Below are positions 1,089 through 13,073 of a DNA stretch of 13,073 bases, piece by piece. Positions within the stretch are counted from its first letter, which is position 1, and every line of letters starts with the position of its first letter. Source of the stretch: a bacterium (GTDB taxonomy: Bacteria; ARS69); NCBI GenBank assembly GCA_025774805.1, contig JALGZR010000109.1, positions 1-13,073 of the forward strand, read 5' to 3'. The translations under genes were made by a program, and so were the position numbers. The notes under the pieces were generated by a model, which was given only the letters and a program-made list of their open reading frames with translations, ran no database searches and had not been told where the DNA came from.

Positions 1089-2798
1089 CTATCTGACCAG
1101 CACCATGCGCCCGGTCTTGCTCGTTCCCCTGGCCTCGAGCCGATAAAAATACACGCCCGCCGGCACCGGCGTTCCGGCCCGGTTCGTGCCGTCCCACGAT
1201 GCGGAGTGCGCTCCGGCCGCGACGACTCCGTCGACGAGCGTCCGCACCAGGCGGCCCGAAGCATTGTAGACGGCCAGTCGAGTCCGAGCCGCCTCTCCGG
1301 CCGAGATCGAGTAGGTCACTCGCGTCGCCCCGCGGAAGGGATTGGGCACGTTCGGCCCGAGAGAAAGGACCGCGGGCCCGCCTTCCGCATCGATGACCGA
1401 CACCGGCCCCGGCGCCAGACTGTTGAGTTTCGCGACATAGATGTCGTACGGGACATTCAGGGCGCCGGTGAAGTACGTGTTGTTGAGGTGGTCAAGAGCG
1501 ATGCCGTGTCCCGAGCCGGCGCTGGGGGACTGCTTCGTGACGGCGAACTCGAGGTCGCTCCCCGCGGCGTCGAGTCCGGCCACGAAGATGGAGGCGAAGT
1601 TGTTTCCCGTCCCCAGGAAGTCGGGCGACCCCGTATATCCGACGACGTGAGCGGATCCGGCGGCATCGACGACGACGTCGGAGCCCTCGTCATTGATGCT
1701 TCCACCGAGATACGTGCCGTATTGAACGCCGGTGCCGTCCGTGGCCAGCTTCACCAGGAAACCGTCGTAGCAGTTGACGGGATGCCCCGGGAAGCCCTCC
1801 TCGCAGCCGTTGATCTCGCCGACGAAGTTCTCCTGAAACGATCCGGCGGTTGTCGGGAAGGAGACCGAGCGGGTGGAACCCGTGATGTACACGAAGTCGT
1901 CCGCATCCAGTTCCATGTCGTGCAGGTAGTCGATGCTCAGTCCCCCGAAGTACGTGCTGAACAGGAGCTCGGTGCCGTCGGCCGAGAATCTCGAGATGAA
2001 GATCTTGTCCGGGCTGGGATTGATGGGATTGACCAGAGGAAAGTCGTCGGCATTGGTGGTCCCGGAGATCACGATATCTCCATCCGCCTCGAGTGCGATG
2101 TTCTCGCCCCAGTCGTCCTCGAACCCACCGAAGTAGGTGCTGTAGAGGATCGTCTGGCCGTCGGCGGAGAGCTTGGTGATGAATGCATCCTGGAAGATGT
2201 AGAGCGGGGCGCTCGGATCGCTCTGATAGGCATCCGCCGTGGTGGGAAAGTCCGTTGAACCCGTATAGCCCACCAGGTAGATCTCTCCGGCGTCGTTGAG
2301 ACAGATGTCCCGGCCTCGGTCGACGTAGTCGCCGCCCAGGTACGTGCCGTAGAGGATCGTGCCGTCCTCGGAATCGAGCTTCAGGACGAAGGCATCCGTG
2401 AACCCCGTCAGAGTGTCATCCAGGGCGTCCGGAGTGGTCGGGAAGCTCTCGGACGAGGTCCACCCCGTGACCCAGACGTCTCCCGCGGTGTCCAGAACGA
2501 TGCCCGTCGCGTAGTCGTGCACCGAGTTGTCTTCCCCGACCGGTACGATCCAGAGCGGCGTACCCTCCGGATCGAGCTTGAAGATCAGGATATCGAGCGT
2601 GTGCTGGTCCTCGTAGTACGATGCGGTCACGAACGCGTTCCCGGCGTCGTCCACGACCATGTCCAGACCCCGACCGAGATAGTAGCCGGGAAGGGTGGTC
2701 TCATAGACGAAATCCGGTGCCACCGCCCTTGACGTGCCCGGCAGCAGCAATGCCGGCAAGAGGCTCGCCACGCAAAGGGCTACGATCCATCGAGACAT
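1089..2798 (-). CDS. Secreted SBBP-repeat seven-bladed beta-propeller protein with FlgD-like C-terminal module
   Basis: Complete gene of 569 residues, using the second of two adjacent ATG codons (2801 and 2798) behind a strong Shine-Dalgarno. Residues 1-25 form a signal peptide: MSR, a hydrophobic core (IVALCVASLLPALLLP) and a likely cut after SRA-25. Residues 41-458 hold seven SBBP-type repeats, each built on D-x-x-G-x-x-Y/V-x-x-G-x-T, for example at 44, 97, 162, 231, 292, 372 and 430. Between them sit SFPTT/DFPTT, DAFVxKL and YGTYLGG/YSTYFGG strands. Seven such units would close one propeller. Residues 476-569 are the FlgD-like module: VPNPFRG, LAVYNASGRLVRTL, WDGTNRAG, PAGVYFYRL, and a basic last strand ending MVLVR. 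It is probably exported and sorted in the same way as the other two large secreted proteins here. Ligand and function are unknown. Confidence 0.9.
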   Translation of the reverse strand: MSRWIVALCVASLLPALLLPGTSRAVAPDFVYETTLPGYYLGRGLDMVVDDAGNAFVTASYYEDQHTLDILIFKLDPEGTPLWIVPVGEDNSVHDYATGIVLDTAGDVWVTGWTSSESFPTTPDALDDTLTGFTDAFVLKLDSEDGTILYGTYLGGDYVDRGRDICLNDAGEIYLVGYTGSTDFPTTADAYQSDPSAPLYIFQDAFITKLSADGQTILYSTYFGGFEDDWGENIALEADGDIVISGTTNADDFPLVNPINPSPDKIFISRFSADGTELLFSTYFGGLSIDYLHDMELDADDFVYITGSTRSVSFPTTAGSFQENFVGEINGCEEGFPGHPVNCYDGFLVKLATDGTGVQYGTYLGGSINDEGSDVVVDAAGSAHVVGYTGSPDFLGTGNNFASIFVAGLDAAGSDLEFAVTKQSPSAGSGHGIALDHLNNTYFTGALNVPYDIYVAKLNSLAPGPVSVIDAEGGPAVLSLGPNVPNPFRGATRVTYSISAGEAARTRLAVYNASGRLVRTLVDGVVAAGAHSASWDGTNRAGTPVPAGVYFYRLEARGTSKTGRMVLVR

Positions 2799-3556
2799 CA
2801 TATTCCTCCTCCCATGCAGTAAGTGTCCGAGGCGTGGACGTCCGTCCAACCGCCGAAATGAACGGAAAACTCGGTCTGGTAATCCGGACGATGAAACTAC
2901 GACGATCTGCGGTGAGTGTGACGCATTTCAGACCCCCGGTCCTTCCGTGACCGGCCTCTCCGACCGTTCTCACCTGTTTGGGGGTCCATTGAGCGCGGCG
3001 TCGTTCTCCGGCTCATGACTCCAAGTCCTGATGCTCCCGGAGGATTCTTCGCTCGACCGCCGTGCGGAAGGTCAAGATCCAAAATCGCCGGGGAGAATAC
3101 AGGAAGGGCGATGGGTCCACAAGCGATTCTACAATTTCTCCTGACCTGTTGTTTCCGAGTGCAGAAAGTCGCCGGTCGTGGGACTCGGGATTGTGAATTG
3201 TGGGCCACGAAGTCTTGAATTCATGAATCCTCGCGGCCGCCCGCCTCTGACTTTGCGTAAATCGGATTCGAGAAGTCGCCAACCCGGTGACCTGCGCGAC
3301 GGGTGGAAGGAGCCCGCCCGTAGGGCGTCACGTGTTGAATCCCATAGGTGCAGCCAGCGACGCCGCATCAAACATGCGACCGGAAGAGCCCCTGGTCTCG
3401 GACTATCGTCGAGGCCGAAGCCCCCGCGCTGAGTCCCGTTCCAGAGGTCCTGGGCGGGGCGGCGGCCGCTCGATCGGACGCGCCACCGGAACAGCCAGCC
3501 TCGTCCAGGGACACGGGTCCCCCGGCGGATCGGCGGCAGGGCAGGACCGGTGGGCC
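2799..3556. other. Long intergenic stretch with potential RNA hairpins and no convincing gene
   Basis: No frame here has a credible start, a Shine-Dalgarno and recognisable protein sequence; the open frames are short, arginine/proline-rich and overlap each other. The left end must hold the leader and promoter of the SBBP-repeat gene. Possible RNA structure: (a) an imperfect inverted repeat, 3188-3199 against 3218-3230, in a locally A/T-richer patch; (b) an 8-pair stem with one G-U, 3299-3306 with 3314-3321, enclosed by GTGAC 3287-3291 / GTCAC 3327-3331; (c) a 7-pair stem, GGTCTCG 3394-3400 with CGAGGCC 3410-3416. In GC-rich DNA some of these are expected by chance. Confidence 0.4.
2805..2813 (-). 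promoter_or_regulatory. Ribosome binding site deciding the start of the SBBP-repeat gene
   Basis: On the minus strand GGGAGGAGG is followed by AAT and then ATG ATG. The spacer is 3 bases to the first ATG (2801) and 6 bases to the second (2798), which favours 2798. It rules out the longer open frame upstream to 2849, whose extra residues are not signal-peptide-like. Confidence 0.7.
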
Positions 3557-3587
3557 CTGTATCCCTCGGCGGCCTTCTTCCGTCCAA
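3557..3587 (+). promoter_or_regulatory. ECF-type promoter element ahead of the CMD-sigma operon (copy 1)
   Basis: CTGTATCCCTC (3557-3567) and CCGTCCAA (3580-3587) are separated by 12 bases; measured as TGTATCC to CGTC the spacer is 16. CGTC is a common -10 core of ECF promoters, and the -35 box is the variable part that fits each sigma factor. The same two boxes with the same spacing recur at 4567-4597, while their spacers match at only about 2 of 12 positions. It lies 42 bases before the ATG at 3630, leaving room for a short leader and the AAAGGAG at 3617-3623. Autoregulation by the sigma factor at 3956-4537 is inferred. Confidence 0.72.
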
Positions 3588-3629
3588 ACGAGTGAAGGCA
3601 AGCTCGAACGGAACGGAAAGGAGAATCCC

Positions 3630-3959
3630 ATGTCTCACCTGACCCCGCAGAAGCGTGAGCTCGCGGCCATCGGCGCTTCGCTCGCCAGCAACTGCATCCC
3701 CTGCATCAAGTACCACATCCGGAGGGGACGGGAGGCCGGCCTGACCGACGAGGAGATCGCGGAGGCCATCGAGGTCGCCGACACGGTCCGGCAGGTGCCG
3801 GCCCGAAAAGTTCAGGAGGCTGCGACGGCCGCCCTGGGTCACGAGAGCCTGCGAACCGCAAACACCGAGGAGAAACCCGCTTGTGGCGGTGACTCTGACG
3901 TCGCAGTATCATCGAAAGTAGCAGATTCGCCCTGCTGTGATTCGGGGGTCGGCCCGTGA
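3630..3959 (+). CDS. AhpD-like carboxymuconolactone decarboxylase family protein with cysteine-rich tail
   Basis: 109 residues. The ATG follows AAAGGAG with a 6-base spacer, and the frame further upstream has no coding character. It contains the CMD/AhpD active-site pattern: NC-IP-C-IKY-H gives Cys22, Cys25 and His29, and Glu10 lies 12 residues before the first Cys. This is the same spacing as Glu118-Cys130-Cys133-His137 of mycobacterial AhpD (known from the family), so thiol-disulfide or peroxidase-reductase-like chemistry is plausible. The AhpD His132 position is Pro24 here. The helical core (about 1-70) is followed by a non-core tail of about 35 residues with three further cysteines (Cys85, Cys102, Cys103) in PACGG and SPCCDSG. 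The stop overlaps the start of the sigma gene by four bases, implying translational coupling. Cytoplasmic; no signal peptide. A redox sensor or partner of the sigma factor is inferred, not shown. Confidence 0.85.
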   Translation: MSHLTPQKRELAAIGASLASNCIPCIKYHIRRGREAGLTDEEIAEAIEVADTVRQVPARKVQEAATAALGHESLRTANTEEKPACGGDSDVAVSSKVADSPCCDSGVGP

Positions 3960-4537
3960 ATGAGCGTGCGTCCCGAGACGCATCGTTCGAAGATGTCATC
4001 GAGGATCTGGGCCCCACCCTTCGCTCCTACCTGGAGCGAATGGTGGGCGACCCCATGCTGGCCGACGATCTCTTCCAGGAGACGTCGATCAAGATCGCCG
4101 AGGGGCTTCCGGGCTTCGAGGGGCGCTCGACGCTCAAGACCTGGGCGTTCCGCATCGCCCACCGGGTCTGTCTCGATCACTTTCGCAAGGGCGGCAGCAA
4201 GCAGACCTTTCTGGAGTTCCTCGAGGAGGAGCACGCCGCGTCCGAGCCCGAGCAGGACGAGGCGATCGTGATCGACGAGATGAACGAGTGCATCCGTGAT
4301 GTCATCGACTCCCTCCCGCCCGACTACCGGACCGCCCTCGTGCTCCACGACCTGGAGGGGCTGACCGCCGCGGACGTCGCCCGCGTCAGCGAATGCTCGC
4401 TCGCCACGGCCAAGATCCGGATCCACCGGGCCCGGAAGCGGCTTCGCGCCGCCCTCCAGGATCAGTGCCGCTTCTACCACGACCGCGACCAGGTCCTCCG
4501 CTGCGACCGCAAGACCCCGGACGACCCGCCCGCCTGA
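3956..4537 (+). CDS. ECF-type RNA polymerase sigma factor with C-terminal cysteine pair
   Basis: 193 residues, starting at GTG 3956 in a GTGA overlap with the preceding stop; the next in-frame Met is residue 30, inside region 2, so the GTG is preferred. Region 2 (about 17-80) contains the core-binding and -10 recognition motifs (DDLFQETSIKIAEG, STLKTWAFRIAHRVCLDHFRK). Region 4 (about 113-166) contains LPPDYRTALVLHDLEGLT and the recognition helix SLATAKIRIHRARKRLR. No SnoaL-like or other large extra domain follows. Instead there is a tail of about 25 residues with Cys171 and Cys183 spaced 11 apart, QCRFYHDRDQVLRC; other cysteines are at 72, 112 and 147. Such a pair could bind a metal or form a disulfide. 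No classical zinc-binding anti-sigma gene is adjacent. I do not assign a numbered ECF group. It likely recognises the TGTATCC-N16-CGTC element found ahead of its own operon and of the next gene. Confidence 0.93.
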   Translation: MNERASRDASFEDVIEDLGPTLRSYLERMVGDPMLADDLFQETSIKIAEGLPGFEGRSTLKTWAFRIAHRVCLDHFRKGGSKQTFLEFLEEEHAASEPEQDEAIVIDEMNECIRDVIDSLPPDYRTALVLHDLEGLTAADVARVSECSLATAKIRIHRARKRLRAALQDQCRFYHDRDQVLRCDRKTPDDPPA

Positions 4538-4566
4538 GCCCGGCTCCGCCGAATTACTTCTCGCAG

Positions 4567-4597
4567 CTGTATCCCTCCCGCTCGCGAGTCCGTCCAA
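4567..4597 (+). promoter_or_regulatory. ECF-type promoter element ahead of the cysteine-rich small protein (copy 2)
   Basis: CTGTATCCCTC (4567-4577) and CCGTCCAA (4590-4597) are separated by 12 bases, identical in both boxes and in spacing to the element at 3557-3587. Both copies also share GTGAA a few bases downstream. It begins 29 bases after the sigma stop codon and ends 22 bases before the ATG at 4620, so the transcript would have a very short leader holding AAAGGAGG (4605-4612). This gives the two downstream genes their own sigma-dependent start. Confidence 0.72.
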
Positions 4598-4619
4598 GTG
4601 GGTGAAAGGAGGATTCGAC

Positions 4620-4829
4620 ATGGAGACCACGACGTCCCACGGCCCCGTGACCCTGACCCTGGCCCGGGTCTGTCACGGTTGCGGAATCTGCGCTCGAGCG
4701 GAACGGAAGCCGCTGTCCGCGTTCGGGCGACTCATGCGCTGGCACCGGAGCTGGTGCCCGGCGTGGATCGCCCACTCGAAGGTCTACGGCCCGAAGAAGT
4801 TCGCGAGCTCGGATCGAGAGGAGAGGTGA
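4620..4829 (+). CDS. Small cysteine-rich protein, possible metal-binding partner of the sigma factor
   Basis: 69 residues. The ATG at 4620 sits 7 bases after AAAGGAGG; the GTG at 4602 would lie before that site and is rejected. No named family is recognised. Cysteines lie at 18, 21, 24 and 46 in VCHGCGIC and RSWCPAW, with His19, His42 and His52, so CxxCxxC plus a distal Cys/His could form a zinc- or iron-binding knuckle. The middle is basic and aromatic (GRLMRWHRSWCPAW, HSKVYGPKK), which suits nucleic-acid or protein contact. There is no signal peptide or membrane helix. It lies directly behind a second copy of the ECF promoter element and 3 bases ahead of the next gene. By position it could act as an anti-sigma factor, a metal chaperone or an effector; none of these is shown. 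Confidence 0.75.
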   Translation: METTTSHGPVTLTLARVCHGCGICARAERKPLSAFGRLMRWHRSWCPAWIAHSKVYGPKKFASSDREER

Positions 4830-4832
4830 ATC

Positions 4833-5183
4833 ATGCGACGGATGTGTTGCATGCCCTGCGCCGGATTCGGCTCGGGGCGCCCAGGCGACATCGCAAGAAG
4901 AATCGACGGCGCCGGATGGGGCCTCTTCCTCCTCTGGGTCAGCGTGTCGTTGTTGCTCGACGTCGGCTGGGGAATCGCCCTTCTCGGCGTCGGGATCCTG
5001 ACGCTCGTCATGCAGGTCGTCCGCCGGGGCTTCGGCCTGGAGTACGAGAGCTTCTGGTTCTTCGTGGGCGGCGCCATCACCCTGGCCGCCGTCTGGGAGC
5101 TCGCGGCCATCGACGTCTCGCTCGGACCGATCCTCCTCGTCGCTCTGGGGACGGCGATCCTCATGTGGGCGCTCCGGAGGTGA
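4833..5183 (+). CDS. Small four-helix membrane protein with N-terminal CCxxC motif
   Basis: 116 residues. The start is three bases after the previous stop, with AGGAG (4819-4823) 9 bases ahead of the ATG, so it is co-transcribed with the cysteine-rich protein. The N terminus MRRMCCMPC gives Cys5, Cys6 and Cys9, followed by a glycine/arginine-rich stretch on the cytoplasmic side. Four hydrophobic segments follow: about 28-43, 44-61, 74-90 and 95-113, ending in a basic ALRR. It loosely resembles small membrane bundles of the LiaI/LiaF-TM kind, but I cannot name a family. The cysteine motif echoes the rest of the cluster and could bind a metal or form a disulfide at the membrane face. Role inferred only from position: a membrane output or signal input of the sigma regulon. 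Confidence 0.75.
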   Translation: MRRMCCMPCAGFGSGRPGDIARRIDGAGWGLFLLWVSVSLLLDVGWGIALLGVGILTLVMQVVRRGFGLEYESFWFFVGGAITLAAVWELAAIDVSLGPILLVALGTAILMWALRR

Positions 5184-5253
5184 ACCACTTCGTAGCGTGC
5201 GTGGCGGCGTCCGGACGTCGCGACCGGCGGCGGCAAGGGCGACCGCCTCGACG

Positions 5254-7065
5254 TCAGGCGCGAGGAACCGTCTCGGCGGGCCGGACCTCCCGCGCCCCCG
5301 CGGCATCGTCGAACGCGACCTCGCCAAGCCCCGTTCGGGCGGGCGGCACGTGGAGGGTCCACCACTTTGCGGCCAGGTCGTGAGTCCAGCGGCCCGCCCG
5401 CCCCTCGCACTCGTCGAAGCGGCGGGAGAGCTCCTCGGCCGTCTGGGGACGTTTCGAGGGATCCTTCTCGAGGCAATCCAGCACGACCCGATCGAAGTCC
5501 CCCGGAATGTCGAGCTCGGTGCGAGCCGACGGCGGAACGGGATCATCGCGAATGTGCCGGACGATGACATCCATCGGGGAGTCTCCGTCGAAGACGAACT
5601 GTCCGGTCACGAGCCAGTAAGCGACGCATCCGAGGGCGTAGATGTCCGCGCGCCCGTCGACGGAATCGTCGCCGCGAGCCATCTCGGGGGACATGAACAT
5701 CGGAGTCCCGGGCGCCGTGCCCGCTGCCGTCAGCTGGGACCCGACGTCGTCGGATTCATCGGCTCTCTTTACCAGCCCGAAGTCCAGGACCTTCACGAAG
5801 TCGTACTCGAGGCCGTGTCGGCAGACGAAGATGTTGGCCGGTTTGATGTCGCGGTGGATCAGTCCACGTGTGTGCGCTTCGGCAATCGAGGCGCAGATTT
5901 GACGAAGCACGAAGGACGCCCGCTTCACCGGCACGGGACCGTGCTTCTCGACGAGTGACTTCAAGTCGACCCCGTCCAGGAGCTCCATCACGTAGTAGAA
6001 GCTCCCCTCGTCCGTGATGCCGAAGTCGTAGAGATCGACCGTGTGTGGTGAGCGGAGGGCCGCCGTCGCCTGTGCCTCCCGCTCGAACCGCCTCAGGGCC
6101 GTTGCCGTCTGCTCGTGATTGCCCGCACCGAGCGCCTCGGGACGGATGATCTTGATGGCGCCGGGCCTCGCGAGCATGCGGTGTTTCGCCCTCCACACTT
6201 CCCCCATCCCCCCGGCCCCCAGCCTCTCGACGAGCTCGTAGCTCCCCATCCGGCGCGCCTTCGAGAGCTCATGGGTCAGCCGGTACACGACGCGCGATGC
6301 GATGACGGCGAACCCCGCGCAGATGTACGTGGGAATGATCATGTTGCCGAGGTACTCGGGAACCCACGGCCGGGCCGCGTCGGGAATGCCGTGCGCGAGG
6401 AGCGAGGCGAGCAGGACGAACGGCACCGTGCTCGCGGCCAGCAATGACGTCCAGACCGACTCGCGGGGCTCGCTGGGAACGAGAAACGGGAAGAAGATGA
6501 CCCAGACGCCCACCCACGTGACGCCGAAGAACTCGAAGATTCGCGCGTGTCCCTCGGCGAGACGGTCGACGAAGTCCGCCTGCAGGTTCGCGGTCTCGAT
6601 TCCCACGGAACTTCCGGCCCCGAGCACTTTCACGGCCAGATCCTGCTCCCATCCCCAACCCCATCCCGCCACCATCCCGAGGGCGGCCGCCACCTCGAAC
6701 ACCGAGGCGAGCCTCGCGTAGGAGACGACGGGAACGCTGCGGCAGCCCGTCTCACACGTGGGCTGCAAAGTGGGGACGCACCTCTTCGCGCGAACGTAGA
6801 CGACCAGGCCGAGACCGACGGCGGCGGCGGCAACGACGTTGTTGAACAGGTCCGGTCGTAGCGCGTGGTGGGTGAAGACCTGCGACCAGTAGTAGCCGAA
6901 GACCACCGCGTAGCCGATGGCGTAGCAGAGCGCCACCCAGGCAAGCCTCTGGCAGGCACCCCGGTGGACGTCCGGAGCCAGGGGCACCTCGGAGGACCCG
7001 GATTCCAGCTTCGCGGCCACTTGGTGCCGGCCGTTTCCGGCGAGCGCCATCTCCGGTGGCTTCAT
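5254..7065 (-). CDS. Membrane-anchored Ser/Thr protein kinase, N-terminal six-helix domain and C-terminal kinase domain
   Basis: 603 residues from ATG 7065, which follows GGGGGGAAG (7071-7079); the open frame extends to 7266, but that part is arginine/serine-rich and lacks a Shine-Dalgarno. Residues 1-40 are cytoplasmic. Hydrophobic segments lie at about 41-63, 74-91, 117-138, 180-197, 205-225 and 241-262. The kinase domain (about 274-550) has all key motifs: GAGGMGEV 283-290, AIK with Lys305, RREAQ-type Glu330, HRDIKPAN 404-411 (Asp406, Asn411), DFG 428-430, GTPMFMSPE with Glu461, and DIYALGC 474-480. It should therefore be active and phosphorylate Ser/Thr. Two cysteines (104, 108) lie in the loop between helices 2 and 3. 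The layout is opposite to PknB, where the kinase precedes a single helix. A C-terminal tail of about 50 residues has no recognised domain. It is convergent with the sigma cluster, 70 bases away, so not co-transcribed; substrate unknown. Confidence 0.93.
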   Translation of the reverse strand: MKPPEMALAGNGRHQVAAKLESGSSEVPLAPDVHRGACQRLAWVALCYAIGYAVVFGYYWSQVFTHHALRPDLFNNVVAAAAVGLGLVVYVRAKRCVPTLQPTCETGCRSVPVVSYARLASVFEVAAALGMVAGWGWGWEQDLAVKVLGAGSSVGIETANLQADFVDRLAEGHARIFEFFGVTWVGVWVIFFPFLVPSEPRESVWTSLLAASTVPFVLLASLLAHGIPDAARPWVPEYLGNMIIPTYICAGFAVIASRVVYRLTHELSKARRMGSYELVERLGAGGMGEVWRAKHRMLARPGAIKIIRPEALGAGNHEQTATALRRFEREAQATAALRSPHTVDLYDFGITDEGSFYYVMELLDGVDLKSLVEKHGPVPVKRASFVLRQICASIAEAHTRGLIHRDIKPANIFVCRHGLEYDFVKVLDFGLVKRADESDDVGSQLTAAGTAPGTPMFMSPEMARGDDSVDGRADIYALGCVAYWLVTGQFVFDGDSPMDVIVRHIRDDPVPPSARTELDIPGDFDRVVLDCLEKDPSKRPQTAEELSRRFDECEGRAGRWTHDLAAKWWTLHVPPARTGLGEVAFDDAAGAREVRPAETVPRA

Positions 7066-7884: not shown

Positions 7885-10800
7885 TCACCGAATGACCGCC
7901 ACCTTCCTGAGGTGTCGTTCGCTGGATCCGTCGTCGAAGGCGACCTTGATTTCGGCAACGTAGACGCCGTTCACGACAACGTGTCCCCGCCCGTTGCGGC
8001 CGTTCCAGGCCCGATCCTGGTAGAGCCCGGCCTGGAGTCGCTCCCGGTCGATCAGAGTGCGGACCGGCTCGCCGCGGACGGTGTAGAGGCGCAGGGAAAC
8101 CTCCGCCGGCTGATCCAGGAAGAACACGAAGGTCGTCTGTTCCCGCCCCGCCGCGAACGGATTCGGGAGGTTCGACCAGCTTTCCGACAAAGTGCCGCCG
8201 CTGAAGTTGCCGGCCGCCGTCCAGAATGGGAACGCCTCGCCACTCTCCGGCGCCACGGAAACGGACAACAGCGCGCTGGCAGGCTGGATCACCCGAATCC
8301 CCTGCGCGTCGCAGCCGAGACGAAGGGTCTCGGTCCCGGACCCGACACGCAGGGTCGCCCGGATCTCCACCGGCACAGGCGTCCCGGGATCGAGCGCCAG
8401 CTCGCCTGCCGCGGATAGGATCGCGCTCGTCTCCGTGGCGGCCAGCGGACCGCTCGTCGCCCACAGGGAATCCGAAATGAACGCCTCGACCACCGTGACC
8501 GCCTCCCCGACCGGGATCGGCGCCAGATCGCGATTGGCGGCGCCGAGCTCGAGGCCGTCGACCCGAATGGTCCCGGACGACTCCGGCGCGGGGTTCCGCA
8601 GGACCAGGTTCGCCGCAACGACCCCCCGACCGTCGGCGACGAGCACCGGTGGCATCAGGCTCTCGAAGTGGACCATGAGCTCTCGAGGCGGCGATTCGAG
8701 TCGCGTCAGGTTCGACGAGAACGGGAACGCCTCACCCGGAGCTGCATATACCGGTAGGGGCGTTCCGAGATTCGCGTCGGCGGCACGAATCGCCGTGTCG
8801 GTCAGGAACATACCGAGAAAGGACGACGGCGCGGTCGCCTCCACGTCGAGGCGCATCTCGAGCGAGACGGTGTCCGAAGGCGCAATCGTCACCCCGGACA
8901 GCGGAACCACGAAGGTGCTGCCCGCCCCCGGGAGCCCGGCCACCGAACCCACCTCCGAGACGCCGTCCACCACCGCGCACCGTTCGACGAACACCGCCGG
9001 CACGAGTGGATCGTCGCGCTCGTCGCGCAGCGCGAAGACCAGGCTGTCACACCGGATCGCCGCGGTGCCGCGCCCACCGGGGTGCGACAGCCGGAGGGTC
9101 ATGGCCGGGACTTCCTGGTCCCCAACCGTGAGCGTGGCCGGAAGCATCCCATCGCCGGACGCGGTCAGGGACACGGCGGGAGCCTGCACGGTCAGGAGGC
9201 CGCCCGCCAGCGGGGACTCCGCGTAGACGACCGGAACGCTCGACCCTGTGTTCGCGTCACGGGCATCGAACGCCGACGCCGCCCCGAGACGGAGTTGACA
9301 TGTTTCGAGGCTCGCGGAGTCCGCCACGTCGACCGTGATCGCAAGAGGCAACGGCGTGTTCACCGGGACCGAGAGAAGCGTCGACAGCAAAAGGGTCAAG
9401 GTGGTGTCGTCCGCCGCGGTCAGGGCCCTGTCGAGCAGCGTCTGCATCGGGCCCTCCACGCGTATCCTGTCCAAATACGCCTCCGGGTAGGCGATCGCTA
9501 CGCCACCGCTGCCGACGAGGGACACCTGGATCTCGCTCACGCGCACATCGGCCGCGAGCCCGCCTGGATCCGGGTTCAACAGGTCGAGACGGAGCGCGCT
9601 CACGCTCGCCTGGCCCCTCGTCACCGTCTGACTCGGGTTCGAGCCCGTCGATACATCGAGCTGTTCCGGTTCGCCGACGACGCGGGCGAGTCCCGACACC
9701 ACCGGGTAGGAAGCGCCTTGAAGGTCCACCGTCACCGGAGCTCCACTATTGGCGTCCTCCGCGACAAACCAGGAGCTGTCGACGATCGCGACGCGGAACT
9801 CCGGTACGATCGTCGAGTCGGCGATGGCAAGGGACAGACTCAGCGTGGCCTGCCCCCCGGAGCCTCCGCTCTCAATCAGCACGGGCTGCGTGAGGGTGAG
9901 ATCGATCTCGCCTCCGGCCGTCTCCAGAGTCGTCTTGTCCAGGTACATCTCTGCCCCTTCCGTCACGACGACACGCGAGAAGAGATTCGCCGGAATGATC
10001 GGGGCGCCGGACCCGTCCTCGACACGGATCCGCAGCGCCCGCAGGCGGATGTCGGAGGAACCCGCCGAGATCGGATTCGAAAAGGTAAGGCTGAGAGGCA
10101 CGACGTCGGTCTGCCCGCGGCTCACGGAGAACGGCATCGACTCCACCGGAAAGAGGTCCAGCACTTGCGCCTCGAGGAACACCTGGTGGACGTCCGAGAG
10201 GACCGTGAGTGACTGACGCGGAAGGCCGCTCCCGCTCTCGACGCCGGCCACGCTCGTCTCGAGCTGCACCGTTCCCACCGAGTCGGCCCGAAGCGACCAG
10301 ACAAAGGTGCTCTGTGCTCCGGGCGCCAGGTCCATCGTCCCCGGGAGGGGGCCGCCCATGACGGACAGCGTTCCTGTTCCCGATGCCACGAGAGCAGACG
10401 GCGTGATGGCGGTGATCGTGTCGGGACCTGCGTTGCGCACTGCGAGCGTGCCCGTCACGAGACCCCCTACCGTGCTGACCCCGGGGTCGAGATCGAAGTG
10501 CGCGAGCAGGCGCGCCGTGCTCAGGAGAATCGTTGTCGGCGATGCGACCTCCGCGTCGATCGGCCCGTCGTTTCCGGACGCGACGGAGATCCCCCCGACG
10601 GGCACCGTGAGGCGGACCGTGGCGGAGTCCGTCGGAGTGCCCGCCGCGGTTACCGCCACGTAGTAGCGCGAGCCCCCAGCCCCGACCGTGTCCGCCACAA
10701 CCGGCATGACCCAGCGGCCACCTGAGTACACCAGGCCGCCCAGGTCCGCGTCATCGACTGCCCCGGCGTCGAACACGGCGTCGCCGCCATCCCGCCAGAG

Positions 10801-13073
10801 ACGCACGCCCGCGAGATCCGTCGTGGTCGCCGTCCCGTCATTCCGCAGGGACAGCCCGGCGAGCACGTCCACCGCGTACCCGTTGTCCGGGACCACGAGG
10901 TCCAGCGCGAGCCCGGGACCCTCCCCGGGACCGAGCGTTACGGGTGGCGGCGAGTTCACGAGGATTTGAGCGGCCACCATCCCGTCGATCGTCGCCCCGG
11001 CCCCCGAATCGAGCGGCCAGCTTGCCGCGGTCCCCGTTGCGTCGGTGAACGTGATGGACGTTCCGTCGACGACACGCGCGGTCACCACGTCTCCGTCGGC
11101 CGCACGCGTCAGCGACACATCTGCGGTCACGAAGAAGTCGCGGGTCTCTCCGGGCTCCAGGACATGGCCGATGCCGGTGAACGTCGCGGATCCACCCGTG
11201 AAGAACGAGGTTCCGAGGATCGGGTCGGCGGCGAGGGTCCCCAGGGTCCCGTCTCCGTCCCCGTCCACTCGGAGAAGCAACCGGTCCACCTCGGCGTCCC
11301 GCTCGGTCGTCGTGCCGGGCCCCGACGTCCCGTTCGCCACCTCCAGCGAGACCAGAGTCTTCGAGACCGCATAGGAGTTCTGGGCCGAGAGATGCAGCAG
11401 CACGACGTCGGCGCCGCCCGGCGATACGGTCACCGGCAGGACAGGCAGAGCACTCCAGGTGACGCGGTCGACGGTCGTGATCGTCTGAAGAGCCGGGCTG
11501 CGGACGACCAGGTCGTTGGGGCCATCGTTCGCGCTCACCACGCCGATCCCGTTGTCCGGCGTTGCCGGCAACCCCATTCGCACGGTGCGCCCCTCGTTCG
11601 CCAGCACGGCGATGTCACAGGTAACGAATGCGCCGAGGCCGTTCACGGGGATTGGGCTCGAAAGCCCCGTGATGATCCAGCGGTCGCCCGTGTCCACCAT
11701 CTCGCCGAGCAGCAGGTCGCTCGGGGGGTCGAAGACGCCATTGTCGTCCTGATCGACCCAGGCTTCGAGACGCTCCAGATCGGTACCCGGCTGCGCGTCC
11801 CCCTCGTTCACCACACTGATCTTCTGCAGCACGTCGGCCTCGTAACCGTTCGCCGGGAGACGCACGGCCAGAGCGAGGTTTCGAGCGGAGCCCGTGAGCA
11901 GCCCGGTCGCCCCTGCGGCGCCGGGCGCGATCTGGGCCGCCGTCATTCCGTCCACGGCGAACTCACCGAGGGGATCCAAGGGCCACGTGGCGTCGACAAC
12001 CGTTGCCCCGCTGAACACGACGTCGGAGGGAGCCTGCACGACAAGATCCAGGACGTCGCCGTCTCTGGCGGTCAGCGACGCCGCGCTCCAGACCTCGAGG
12101 CGCAGCGTGTCCGCGGCAGCGAGCGGGACGGCCAGGCCCGAGAACGCGGCGCGACCACCGGAGAACGTCGCCGTTGCGATCGGCTCGACATCGCCCTCGA
12201 CGTAGAGCTCGAGGGTCTGCCACTCCGCGTCGAGCTGCACCGCGGTACCGATCCCGCTCGTGCTGTTGACAGCCGTCAGAGACGAAAGCGTGTCCGTGGA
12301 GGCGGACTGGTTGGTCAACGTGAGATCAAGCACGGGCTGCAGGGGACCACCGGGGCGAAGTGATCCGAACGGCTGCACGTCCGCGCTCACCGTCACCCGC
12401 GAAGTCACATCGATGTCAACCGAGGCGACGTCGTTCCCCGCCACCGGATCGGACAGGTCCGACCCCGAGACGGAGGCCGTGTTCGTGATCGTCGCGCCGG
12501 CCGTCCCCGCGTCCACCGTCGCCGTGACGGTGAGGACCGCGCTGTCGCCGACGGTCAGTGTGCCGACCGCCCACAGACCCGTTCCGGGAAGGTAAATCCC
12601 GTGGCCGGGGACGTCAGACTGGTACGTCAGCTCGACCGGCAGGAGGTCCGTGACCGCCACGCCCGTCGCGTCGTCGGGACCGAGATTCGCCACGGTGATC
12701 GTGTATGTGAGATTGCCACCCTCGTTCGGGGTGGGATCGTCCACGGACTTCGTGACCGCGAGATCCGCGCTCCGGACGGTGACGTCCACCGAGTCGCTCT
12801 CGTCCCCGGAGGCGGGATCCGCCTGATCGACTGCGGTCACCGCCGCCGTGTTGGCGACGGTAGAGCCGCCGGTGCCGGCGTCCACGGTCGCGGAGAGAAC
12901 GAGCGTGGCGCCCGAGGACGCGGCGATTCCGCCCACAGTCCACACGCCCGTGCCGCTGGAGTAGGTTCCCTGGCTCGGAGTGTCGGCTTCGTAAGTCAAC
13001 CCGGCGGGCAGGGCGTCGGTGATCTCCACGCCGGTAGCGGAGTCCGGGCCGTTGTTGCTCACGGTGATCGTAT
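7885..13073 (-). CDS. Giant secreted repeat protein: DUF11, 322-residue modules, CARDB-like domain, ~165-residue modules, FlgD-like sorting module (5' end outside window)
   Basis: Over 1,725 residues are visible. The frame continues past the right edge: bases beyond the GTG at 13062 read TIT and join TVSNNGPD in a DUF11 pattern, so 13062 is not the start. Order from N to C, counting from 13062: DUF11 repeats (1-97 and 98-221; ADLAVTKSVDDPTP, YTITVANLGPDDATG, NTASV), which form Ig-like rods in surface proteins; two copies of a 322-residue module (222-852); a CARDB-like Ig domain (about 853-972, LAVRNAGPDTI); four copies of a ~165-residue module (about 976-1620); then the FlgD-like module (1630-1725: NLPNPFAAGREQT, LYTVRGEPVRTLID, WNGRNGRG, NGVYVAEI, last strand ending KVAVIR). 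There is no enzymatic motif. Role inferred: an exported stalk or adhesin-like surface protein sorted through its last domain. The stop is TGA 7885-7887. Confidence 0.9.
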   Translation of the reverse strand, partial: TITVSNNGPDSATGVEITDALPAGLTYEADTPSQGTYSSGTGVWTVGGIAASSGATLVLSATVDAGTGGSTVANTAAVTAVDQADPASGDESDSVDVTVRSADLAVTKSVDDPTPNEGGNLTYTITVANLGPDDATGVAVTDLLPVELTYQSDVPGHGIYLPGTGLWAVGTLTVGDSAVLTVTATVDAGTAGATITNTASVSGSDLSDPVAGNDVASVDIDVTSRVTVSADVQPFGSLRPGGPLQPVLDLTLTNQSASTDTLSSLTAVNSTSGIGTAVQLDAEWQTLELYVEGDVEPIATATFSGGRAAFSGLAVPLAAADTLRLEVWSAASLTARDGDVLDLVVQAPSDVVFSGATVVDATWPLDPLGEFAVDGMTAAQIAPGAAGATGLLTGSARNLALAVRLPANGYEADVLQKISVVNEGDAQPGTDLERLEAWVDQDDNGVFDPPSDLLLGEMVDTGDRWIITGLSSPIPVNGLGAFVTCDIAVLANEGRTVRMGLPATPDNGIGVVSANDGPNDLVVRSPALQTITTVDRVTWSALPVLPVTVSPGGADVVLLHLSAQNSYAVSKTLVSLEVANGTSGPGTTTERDAEVDRLLLRVDGDGDGTLGTLAADPILGTSFFTGGSATFTGIGHVLEPGETRDFFVTADVSLTRAADGDVVTARVVDGTSITFTDATGTAASWPLDSGAGATIDGMVAAQILVNSPPPVTLGPGEGPGLALDLVVPDNGYAVDVLAGLSLRNDGTATTTDLAGVRLWRDGGDAVFDAGAVDDADLGGLVYSGGRWVMPVVADTVGAGGSRYYVAVTAAGTPTDSATVRLTVPVGGISVASGNDGPIDAEVASPTTILLSTARLLAHFDLDPGVSTVGGLVTGTLAVRNAGPDTITAITPSALVASGTGTLSVMGGPLPGTMDLAPGAQSTFVWSLRADSVGTVQLETSVAGVESGSGLPRQSLTVLSDVHQVFLEAQVLDLFPVESMPFSVSRGQTDVVPLSLTFSNPISAGSSDIRLRALRIRVEDGSGAPIIPANLFSRVVVTEGAEMYLDKTTLETAGGEIDLTLTQPVLIESGGSGGQATLSLSLAIADSTIVPEFRVAIVDSSWFVAEDANSGAPVTVDLQGASYPVVSGLARVVGEPEQLDVSTGSNPSQTVTRGQASVSALRLDLLNPDPGGLAADVRVSEIQVSLVGSGGVAIAYPEAYLDRIRVEGPMQTLLDRALTAADDTTLTLLLSTLLSVPVNTPLPLAITVDVADSASLETCQLRLGAASAFDARDANTGSSVPVVYAESPLAGGLLTVQAPAVSLTASGDGMLPATLTVGDQEVPAMTLRLSHPGGRGTAAIRCDSLVFALRDERDDPLVPAVFVERCAVVDGVSEVGSVAGLPGAGSTFVVPLSGVTIAPSDTVSLEMRLDVEATAPSSFLGMFLTDTAIRAADANLGTPLPVYAAPGEAFPFSSNLTRLESPPRELMVHFESLMPPVLVADGRGVVAANLVLRNPAPESSGTIRVDGLELGAANRDLAPIPVGEAVTVVEAFISDSLWATSGPLAATETSAILSAAGELALDPGTPVPVEIRATLRVGSGTETLRLGCDAQGIRVIQPASALLSVSVAPESGEAFPFWTAAGNFSGGTLSESWSNLPNPFAAGREQTTFVFFLDQPAEVSLRLYTVRGEPVRTLIDRERLQAGLYQDRAWNGRNGRGHVVVNGVYVAEIKVAFDDGSSERHLRKVAVIR
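8205..10137 (-). repeat. Four tandem copies of an unrecognised ~165-residue module inside the giant secreted protein
   Basis: Each copy opens with a (R/V)G pair, followed by a strand such as VVPLSLTFSNP, VSALRLDLLNP, VPAMTLRLSHP or VAANLVLRNP. The (R/V)G pairs fall at residues 982, 1149, 1313 and 1479, spacings of 167, 164 and 166. The first three copies end with DANxG (1103, 1269, 1429) followed by a proline/valine strand; the last copy lacks this motif (VIQPASALL instead). Copies C and D share GEAFPF at their ends. The repeat is assumed to be all-beta. Confidence 0.75.
10507..12399 (-). repeat. Two tandem copies of a 322-residue module inside the giant secreted protein
   Basis: Matching anchors are 322 residues apart: VDGMTAAQI (370-378) with IDGMVAAQI (692-700), and ANGYEADVL (404-412) with DNGYAVDVL (726-734). 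Further pairs are FSGGRAAFSG with FTGGSATFTG, GDRWIITG with GGRWVMPV, and GVVSANDGP with SVASGNDGP. Each copy begins with a beta-rich half containing an AEx3LxL(Y/R)V(E/D)GD segment and continues with a half containing an acidic loop (DQDDNGVFD in copy 1, GDAVFDAGAVDD in copy 2) that could bind calcium. Copies are clearly diverged, so duplication is old. Confidence 0.75.

Follow-up and report, generated by a model that had tools for sequence, protein, structure and literature searches.

A repeated two-box element flanking the gene for a cysteine-bearing extracytoplasmic function sigma factor, and its occurrence in other bacterial phyla

Two copies of a promoter-like element

What reads a two-box element that stands on either side of a sigma factor gene? 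The question arises from a 13,073-nt stretch of bacterial DNA (lineage ARS69, assembly GCA_025774805.1, contig JALGZR010000109.1), here called the window, which carries two plus-strand copies of CTGTATCCCTC-N12-CCGTCCAA, named P1 (3557-3587) and P2 (4567-4597), around a gene for an extracytoplasmic function (ECF) sigma factor. We hold it to be very likely that P1 and P2 are promoters read by this sigma factor, in an autoregulatory arrangement. The first box, CTGTATCCCTC, is located at 3557-3567 and 4567-4577 and the second, CCGTCCAA, at 3580-3587 and 4590-4597. The boxes are identical between the copies and the 12-base spacers (GGCGGCCTTCTT vs. CCGCTCGCGAGT) match at 2 of 12 positions; as one of these matches abuts the second box, the common blocks comprise 11 + 9 bases. 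Coordinates, letters, equal spacing and the poor agreement of the spacers are exactly those of the initial annotation, which had also seen no third copy in the window. We found none there either, nor in the 5.1 Mb genome, where only the two window copies match TGTATCCN13-19CCGTCC. A genome scan allowing 2 mismatches yielded no further convincing site, and seven other TGTATCC-N-CGTC matches all lack the CCGTCC form of the -10 box; a wider regulon in this genome was rejected on these grounds. By itself the bare repeat is weak evidence, because a comparable two-block repeat appeared in 12 of 60 first-order Markov shuffles of the whole window. Within the two 150-bp upstream regions the repeat is significant, with a comparable one in 0 of 4000 shuffles.

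P1 has the -35 sequence TGTATCCCTC and the -10 sequence CGTCCAA, with N17 between TGTATC and CGTC, and precedes an operon for an AhpD-like carboxymuconolactone decarboxylase (CMD) protein (109 aa, 3630-3959, plus strand) and the sigma factor (193 aa, 3956-4537, plus strand), whose GTG start overlaps the CMD stop codon. P2 precedes a gene for a 69-aa protein (4620-4829, plus strand), followed by one for a hydrophobic, probably membrane-located protein of 116 aa (4833-5183, plus strand). In the mechanism that we propose, the sigma factor would recognise both elements flanking its own gene; P1 would drive the CMD-sigma operon and so provide positive feedback, and P2 would drive expression of the 69-aa cysteine protein and of the putative membrane protein encoded next. 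The four locus genes would then probably make up the whole regulon in this genome. The initial annotation had predicted at least four genes with positive feedback, of which the self-activating part is supported, and the size appears limited to four. A reading of the locus as an RNA element was discarded, as no Rfam match was obtained within 2900-5300.

Conservation of the element and its co-occurrence with the sigma factor

Relatives of the sigma factor were found in records named Beta-, Alpha- and Gammaproteobacteria, Nitrospira, Chloroflexi, Planctomycetota, Latescibacterota, Krumholzibacteriia and Acidobacteria. One of them, L029, is the locus of a named strain, Panacagrimonas perspica DSM 26377. 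We find the element at 21 out of 25 related loci (L010-L034), usually immediately upstream of the AhpD/CMD gene. These instances were chosen by pattern, and we therefore carried out a separate, unsupervised dyad count over the 250 bp that precede CMD in each of 17 loci from several phyla. The top-ranked dyad was TGTATC-N17-CGTC, found in 15 of the 17 upstream regions, compared with at most 3 in shuffled sets. Conservation extends past the chosen boxes, with CCTY after TGTATC, C before CGTC and YAAG after CGTC; the leading C lacks such conservation. The refined element reads TGTATCCCTY-N12-CCGTCYAAG. As a promoter it would comprise a -35 box TGTATCCCTY and a -10 box CGTCYAAG, with 17 bp between TGTATC and CGTC, and in the window and its relatives CGTC lies about 25-155 nt from the start codon. 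Two members found later in the phylum of the Nitrospira record, which served as a held-out test, both have the N17 element before CMD.

In the nearest relative, L010, both copies are located at the same places as in the window, with boxes kept and spacers diverged. The second window copy is conserved before the gene for the same 69-aa cysteine protein in two other genomes, L010 (88% identity) and L024 (70%), where the element is followed by a 42-aa cysteine-bearing open reading frame (ORF) and then the 69-aa gene. The comparison of orthologous CMD-sigma operons proposed in the initial annotation came out in favour of selection on the boxes over recent duplication, a claim for which the repeat alone was weaker evidence than then thought. 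Gene order around the element varies: in L013 the gene for a relative of the 116-aa protein (40% identity; 75% in the L010 homologue) separates the element from CMD, in L016 and L124 the sigma gene comes first but CMD again has the element in front of it, and in L032 it stands before the sigma gene itself, followed by an overlapping ArsM gene. Some loci speak against the promoter assignment. Four lack the element, namely L012, L017, L033 and L034; the L017 contig begins 67 bp before the sigma match, the L012 contig has about 225 bp before the CMD match, and in L033 and L034 the sigma factor is matched only in part. In L011 the element is directed away from the sigma gene, toward no clear gene. 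Two neighbouring frames were noted separately. In L026 a single frame (1717-3915) spans, in this order, an acetyltransferase domain, an oxidoreductase domain and CMD and contains the promoter element, a candidate for a fusion, a missing stop or a sequence error. In L024 a peroxiredoxin-like frame (5095-5562) near the sigma and 69-aa genes has TGA right after DFTPT, at the expected site of the peroxidatic cysteine, and resumes beyond; its product is a candidate selenoprotein.

Across 24 sigma-bearing genomes TGTATCN16-18CGTCYAAG gave 19 matches, 17 of them at the sigma/CMD locus. The N18 site G012:C188 was treated as chance, and the only convincing off-locus element (G019:C279) leads to a phosphatase/glyoxalase-type gene divergent from a gapdh-arsJ pair. 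Among 349 Burkholderiales genomes the sigma factor occurs in 2, both of which match the element, while the remaining 347 genomes include 10 that match when all three spacings are allowed and 1 with N17. In the window's class 2 of 5 genomes carry the sigma factor, and the same 2 carry the element, in two copies each. As the initial annotation had expected of a genome-wide scan, the matches are not random but located at the sigma locus. Because genomes hold one or two copies, almost solely at that locus, the regulon would be tiny and self-activating; with one or two promoters the whole circuit is amenable to laboratory testing.

The element is thus bipartite and directional, stands before the sigma operon, is kept in orthologues and co-occurs with the sigma factor, as an autoregulated ECF promoter would. 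From its conservation, position, strand, spacing and scarcity elsewhere, together with this co-occurrence, we infer direct recognition of P1 and P2 by the sigma factor; the prediction of the initial annotation that both are the sigma factor's own target sites gains support from orthologues and co-occurrence alike. Alternatively, a separate regulator, such as one of the ArsR or MerR type, could use the element as its operator, with the sigma factor merely co-regulated, and ArsR genes do lie near several relatives. We consider this improbable, since the element is non-palindromic and directional, is laid out like a promoter with a CGTC -10 box and co-occurs with the sigma factor in genomes of many phyla, and we recognised no ArsR gene among those of the window locus. 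Slightly less probable still is that another of the cell's ECF sigma factors reads P1 and P2 and the locus sigma factor reads other sites: the genome does hold dozens of weaker sigma-like candidates (46-48 at first look), but the element tracks this sigma factor across phyla and hardly occurs in Burkholderiales genomes without it, despite the many sigma candidates there. Chance or recent duplication, to which the 12 matching window shuffles might point, was ruled out by the conservation of the boxes across phyla, and unrelated spacers and flanks as well as the upstream-region shuffles leave it a negligible probability.

Gene products, arsenic linkage and conserved cysteines

The CMD protein contains the AhpD core domain with CxxC and downstream His (SNCIPCIKYH; TIGR00778 40.2 bits against a cut-off of 27.8; PF02627 57.5 bits) and has a cysteine-bearing tail. 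The 193-aa product has regions 2 and 4 only (Sigma70_r2, PF04542, and Sigma70_r4_2, PF08281, both over the gathering score), as befits an ECF sigma factor. No Pfam or NCBIfam family was found for the 69-aa protein, which carries CHGCGIC and WCPAW, or for the 116-aa protein, and no anti-sigma gene was recognised beside the locus genes. Convergent with the P2 genes is a Ser/Thr protein kinase gene (PF00069; 5254-7266, minus strand) with an N-terminal hydrophobic region, and a very long repetitive frame of at least 1728 aa (7885-13071, minus strand), open at the contig end and with a FlgD-like C-terminal end, probably encodes a surface protein.

The arrangement of the window locus is seen again in many bacterial phyla, frequently with arsenic-resistance genes close by. 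Among 27 genomes, 8 or 9 show such genes linked to the sigma gene, several of them on short contigs. The neighbours of the sigma gene are ArsR, ArsM, an ArsC-like gene, ArsD and ArsA in L062, ArsR and ArsM in L065, ArsR, ArsC, ACR3 and ArsM in L071, ArsC, an ArsR-like gene and an aquaporin-family gene in L074, ArsA on both sides in L026 and L028, ArsM in L032, ArsR, ArsM, ACR3 and ArsC in L123, and an ArsR-like match plus a distant ACR3-like one in L124. Of the ArsM copies that pass the curated cut-off, 21 in all, four are found no more than 5 kb from the sigma gene, where 0.045 would be expected (about 10 kb per 4.7 Mb genome; Poisson probability about 2e-7); as the genomes were gathered via the sigma factor, this tests linkage against position, not against other sigma families. 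Three further observations concern these neighbourhoods. The records of L018 and L028, with sigma and arsenic genes, are titled Klebsiella pneumoniae metagenome-assembled genome, which is probably wrong for these bins. In L071 the sigma gene and ArsM are separated by a second ACR3 fragment (11762 onward), a partial duplication of 74 aa that shares 90% identity with the complete copy. Several ArsM-family matches contain in-frame TGA or TAG, and some of them are perhaps selenoproteins (compare NF041537).

The window sigma factor is a member of a rare, scattered, cysteine-bearing ECF clade: an alignment of 24 members shows C112, C171 and C183 as invariant and C147 as nearly so. AlphaFold places strands at 171-175 and 181-185 with moderate confidence (mean pLDDT 75.9, pTM 0.42), so that C171 and C183 are predicted to sit in a C-terminal hairpin. 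Solved ECF chains match the sigma profile only up to about position 168, and the tail is therefore an addition to the usual fold. These cysteines are missing from the aligned parts of the more distant ECF sigma factors L118 and L035; a more distant paralogue (L117, G012:C263:18673-19203, 36% identity) carries a cysteine in the place of C112 and a further one at the tail.

In the apparent absence of an anti-sigma gene, control of the sigma factor may lie in its invariant cysteines, maybe together with the AhpD-like CxxC protein, and respond to arsenite or a related thiol stress. This is more weakly inferred, and we give it an even chance. Two points tell against it: the window locus has no arsenic gene, ArsM occurring solely on another contig of that genome, and the whole of the evidence for the arsenic or thiol step is linkage and conserved cysteines. 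We regard as doubtful the bolder version, in which C112, C171 and C183 would make the sigma factor itself, with no anti-sigma factor, a sensor of arsenite or of a comparable metalloid that binds thiols, and it would activate its own operon and arsenic-defence genes. If true, it would be an arsenic switch made from a sigma factor rather than an ArsR repressor.

Comparison with known ECF groups

New here are a rare cysteine-bearing ECF clade with no anti-sigma gene seen, its ties to arsenic-resistance genes and three cysteines as a candidate on-board sensor. In the open literature searched we found no description of this clade or of an arsenic-linked ECF sigma factor with a CMD gene, and the element supplies a precise promoter code for the clade across phyla; the clade may already have a number in the 2021 ECF classification. 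SigZ is the best-scoring curated family for the window sigma factor, but membership was ruled out by scores under the curated cut-offs (NF007215, 119 bits vs. 212; TIGR02959, 117 bits vs. 168.65). Cysteine-rich tails are ascribed to ECF287 and ECF288.

ECF41 (PMC3426412; RpoE9 of S. meliloti, PMC6180224) shares a CxxC CMD gene adjoining the sigma gene, no obvious anti-sigma factor, a CGTC -10 box and a tiny regulon with the neighbouring gene as sole target. Membership was ruled out: in place of the SnoaL-like C-terminal extension of ECF41, for which the window sigma factor has no such Pfam domain, there is a short predicted cysteine hairpin, with only about 25 residues following sigma4, and in place of the ECF41 -35 box TGTCACA there is TGTATC in both copies and all relatives (TGTATCC in the window). 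CorE and CorE2 of Myxococcus xanthus, formerly ECF44 and now ECF238 (PMC8999054), were likewise excluded, on the CXC motif that CorE has in the sigma2-sigma4 linker: the window sigma factor has only the single invariant C112, at the start of sigma4. CorE also has a cysteine-rich domain, and the window sigma factor two invariant cysteines in its predicted C-terminal hairpin. As in CorE/CorE2, no anti-sigma factor is seen for the window sigma factor, there are cysteines both in the tail and close to the linker, and control may be cysteine-based; we count the metal-related role of CorE/CorE2 as a further likeness.
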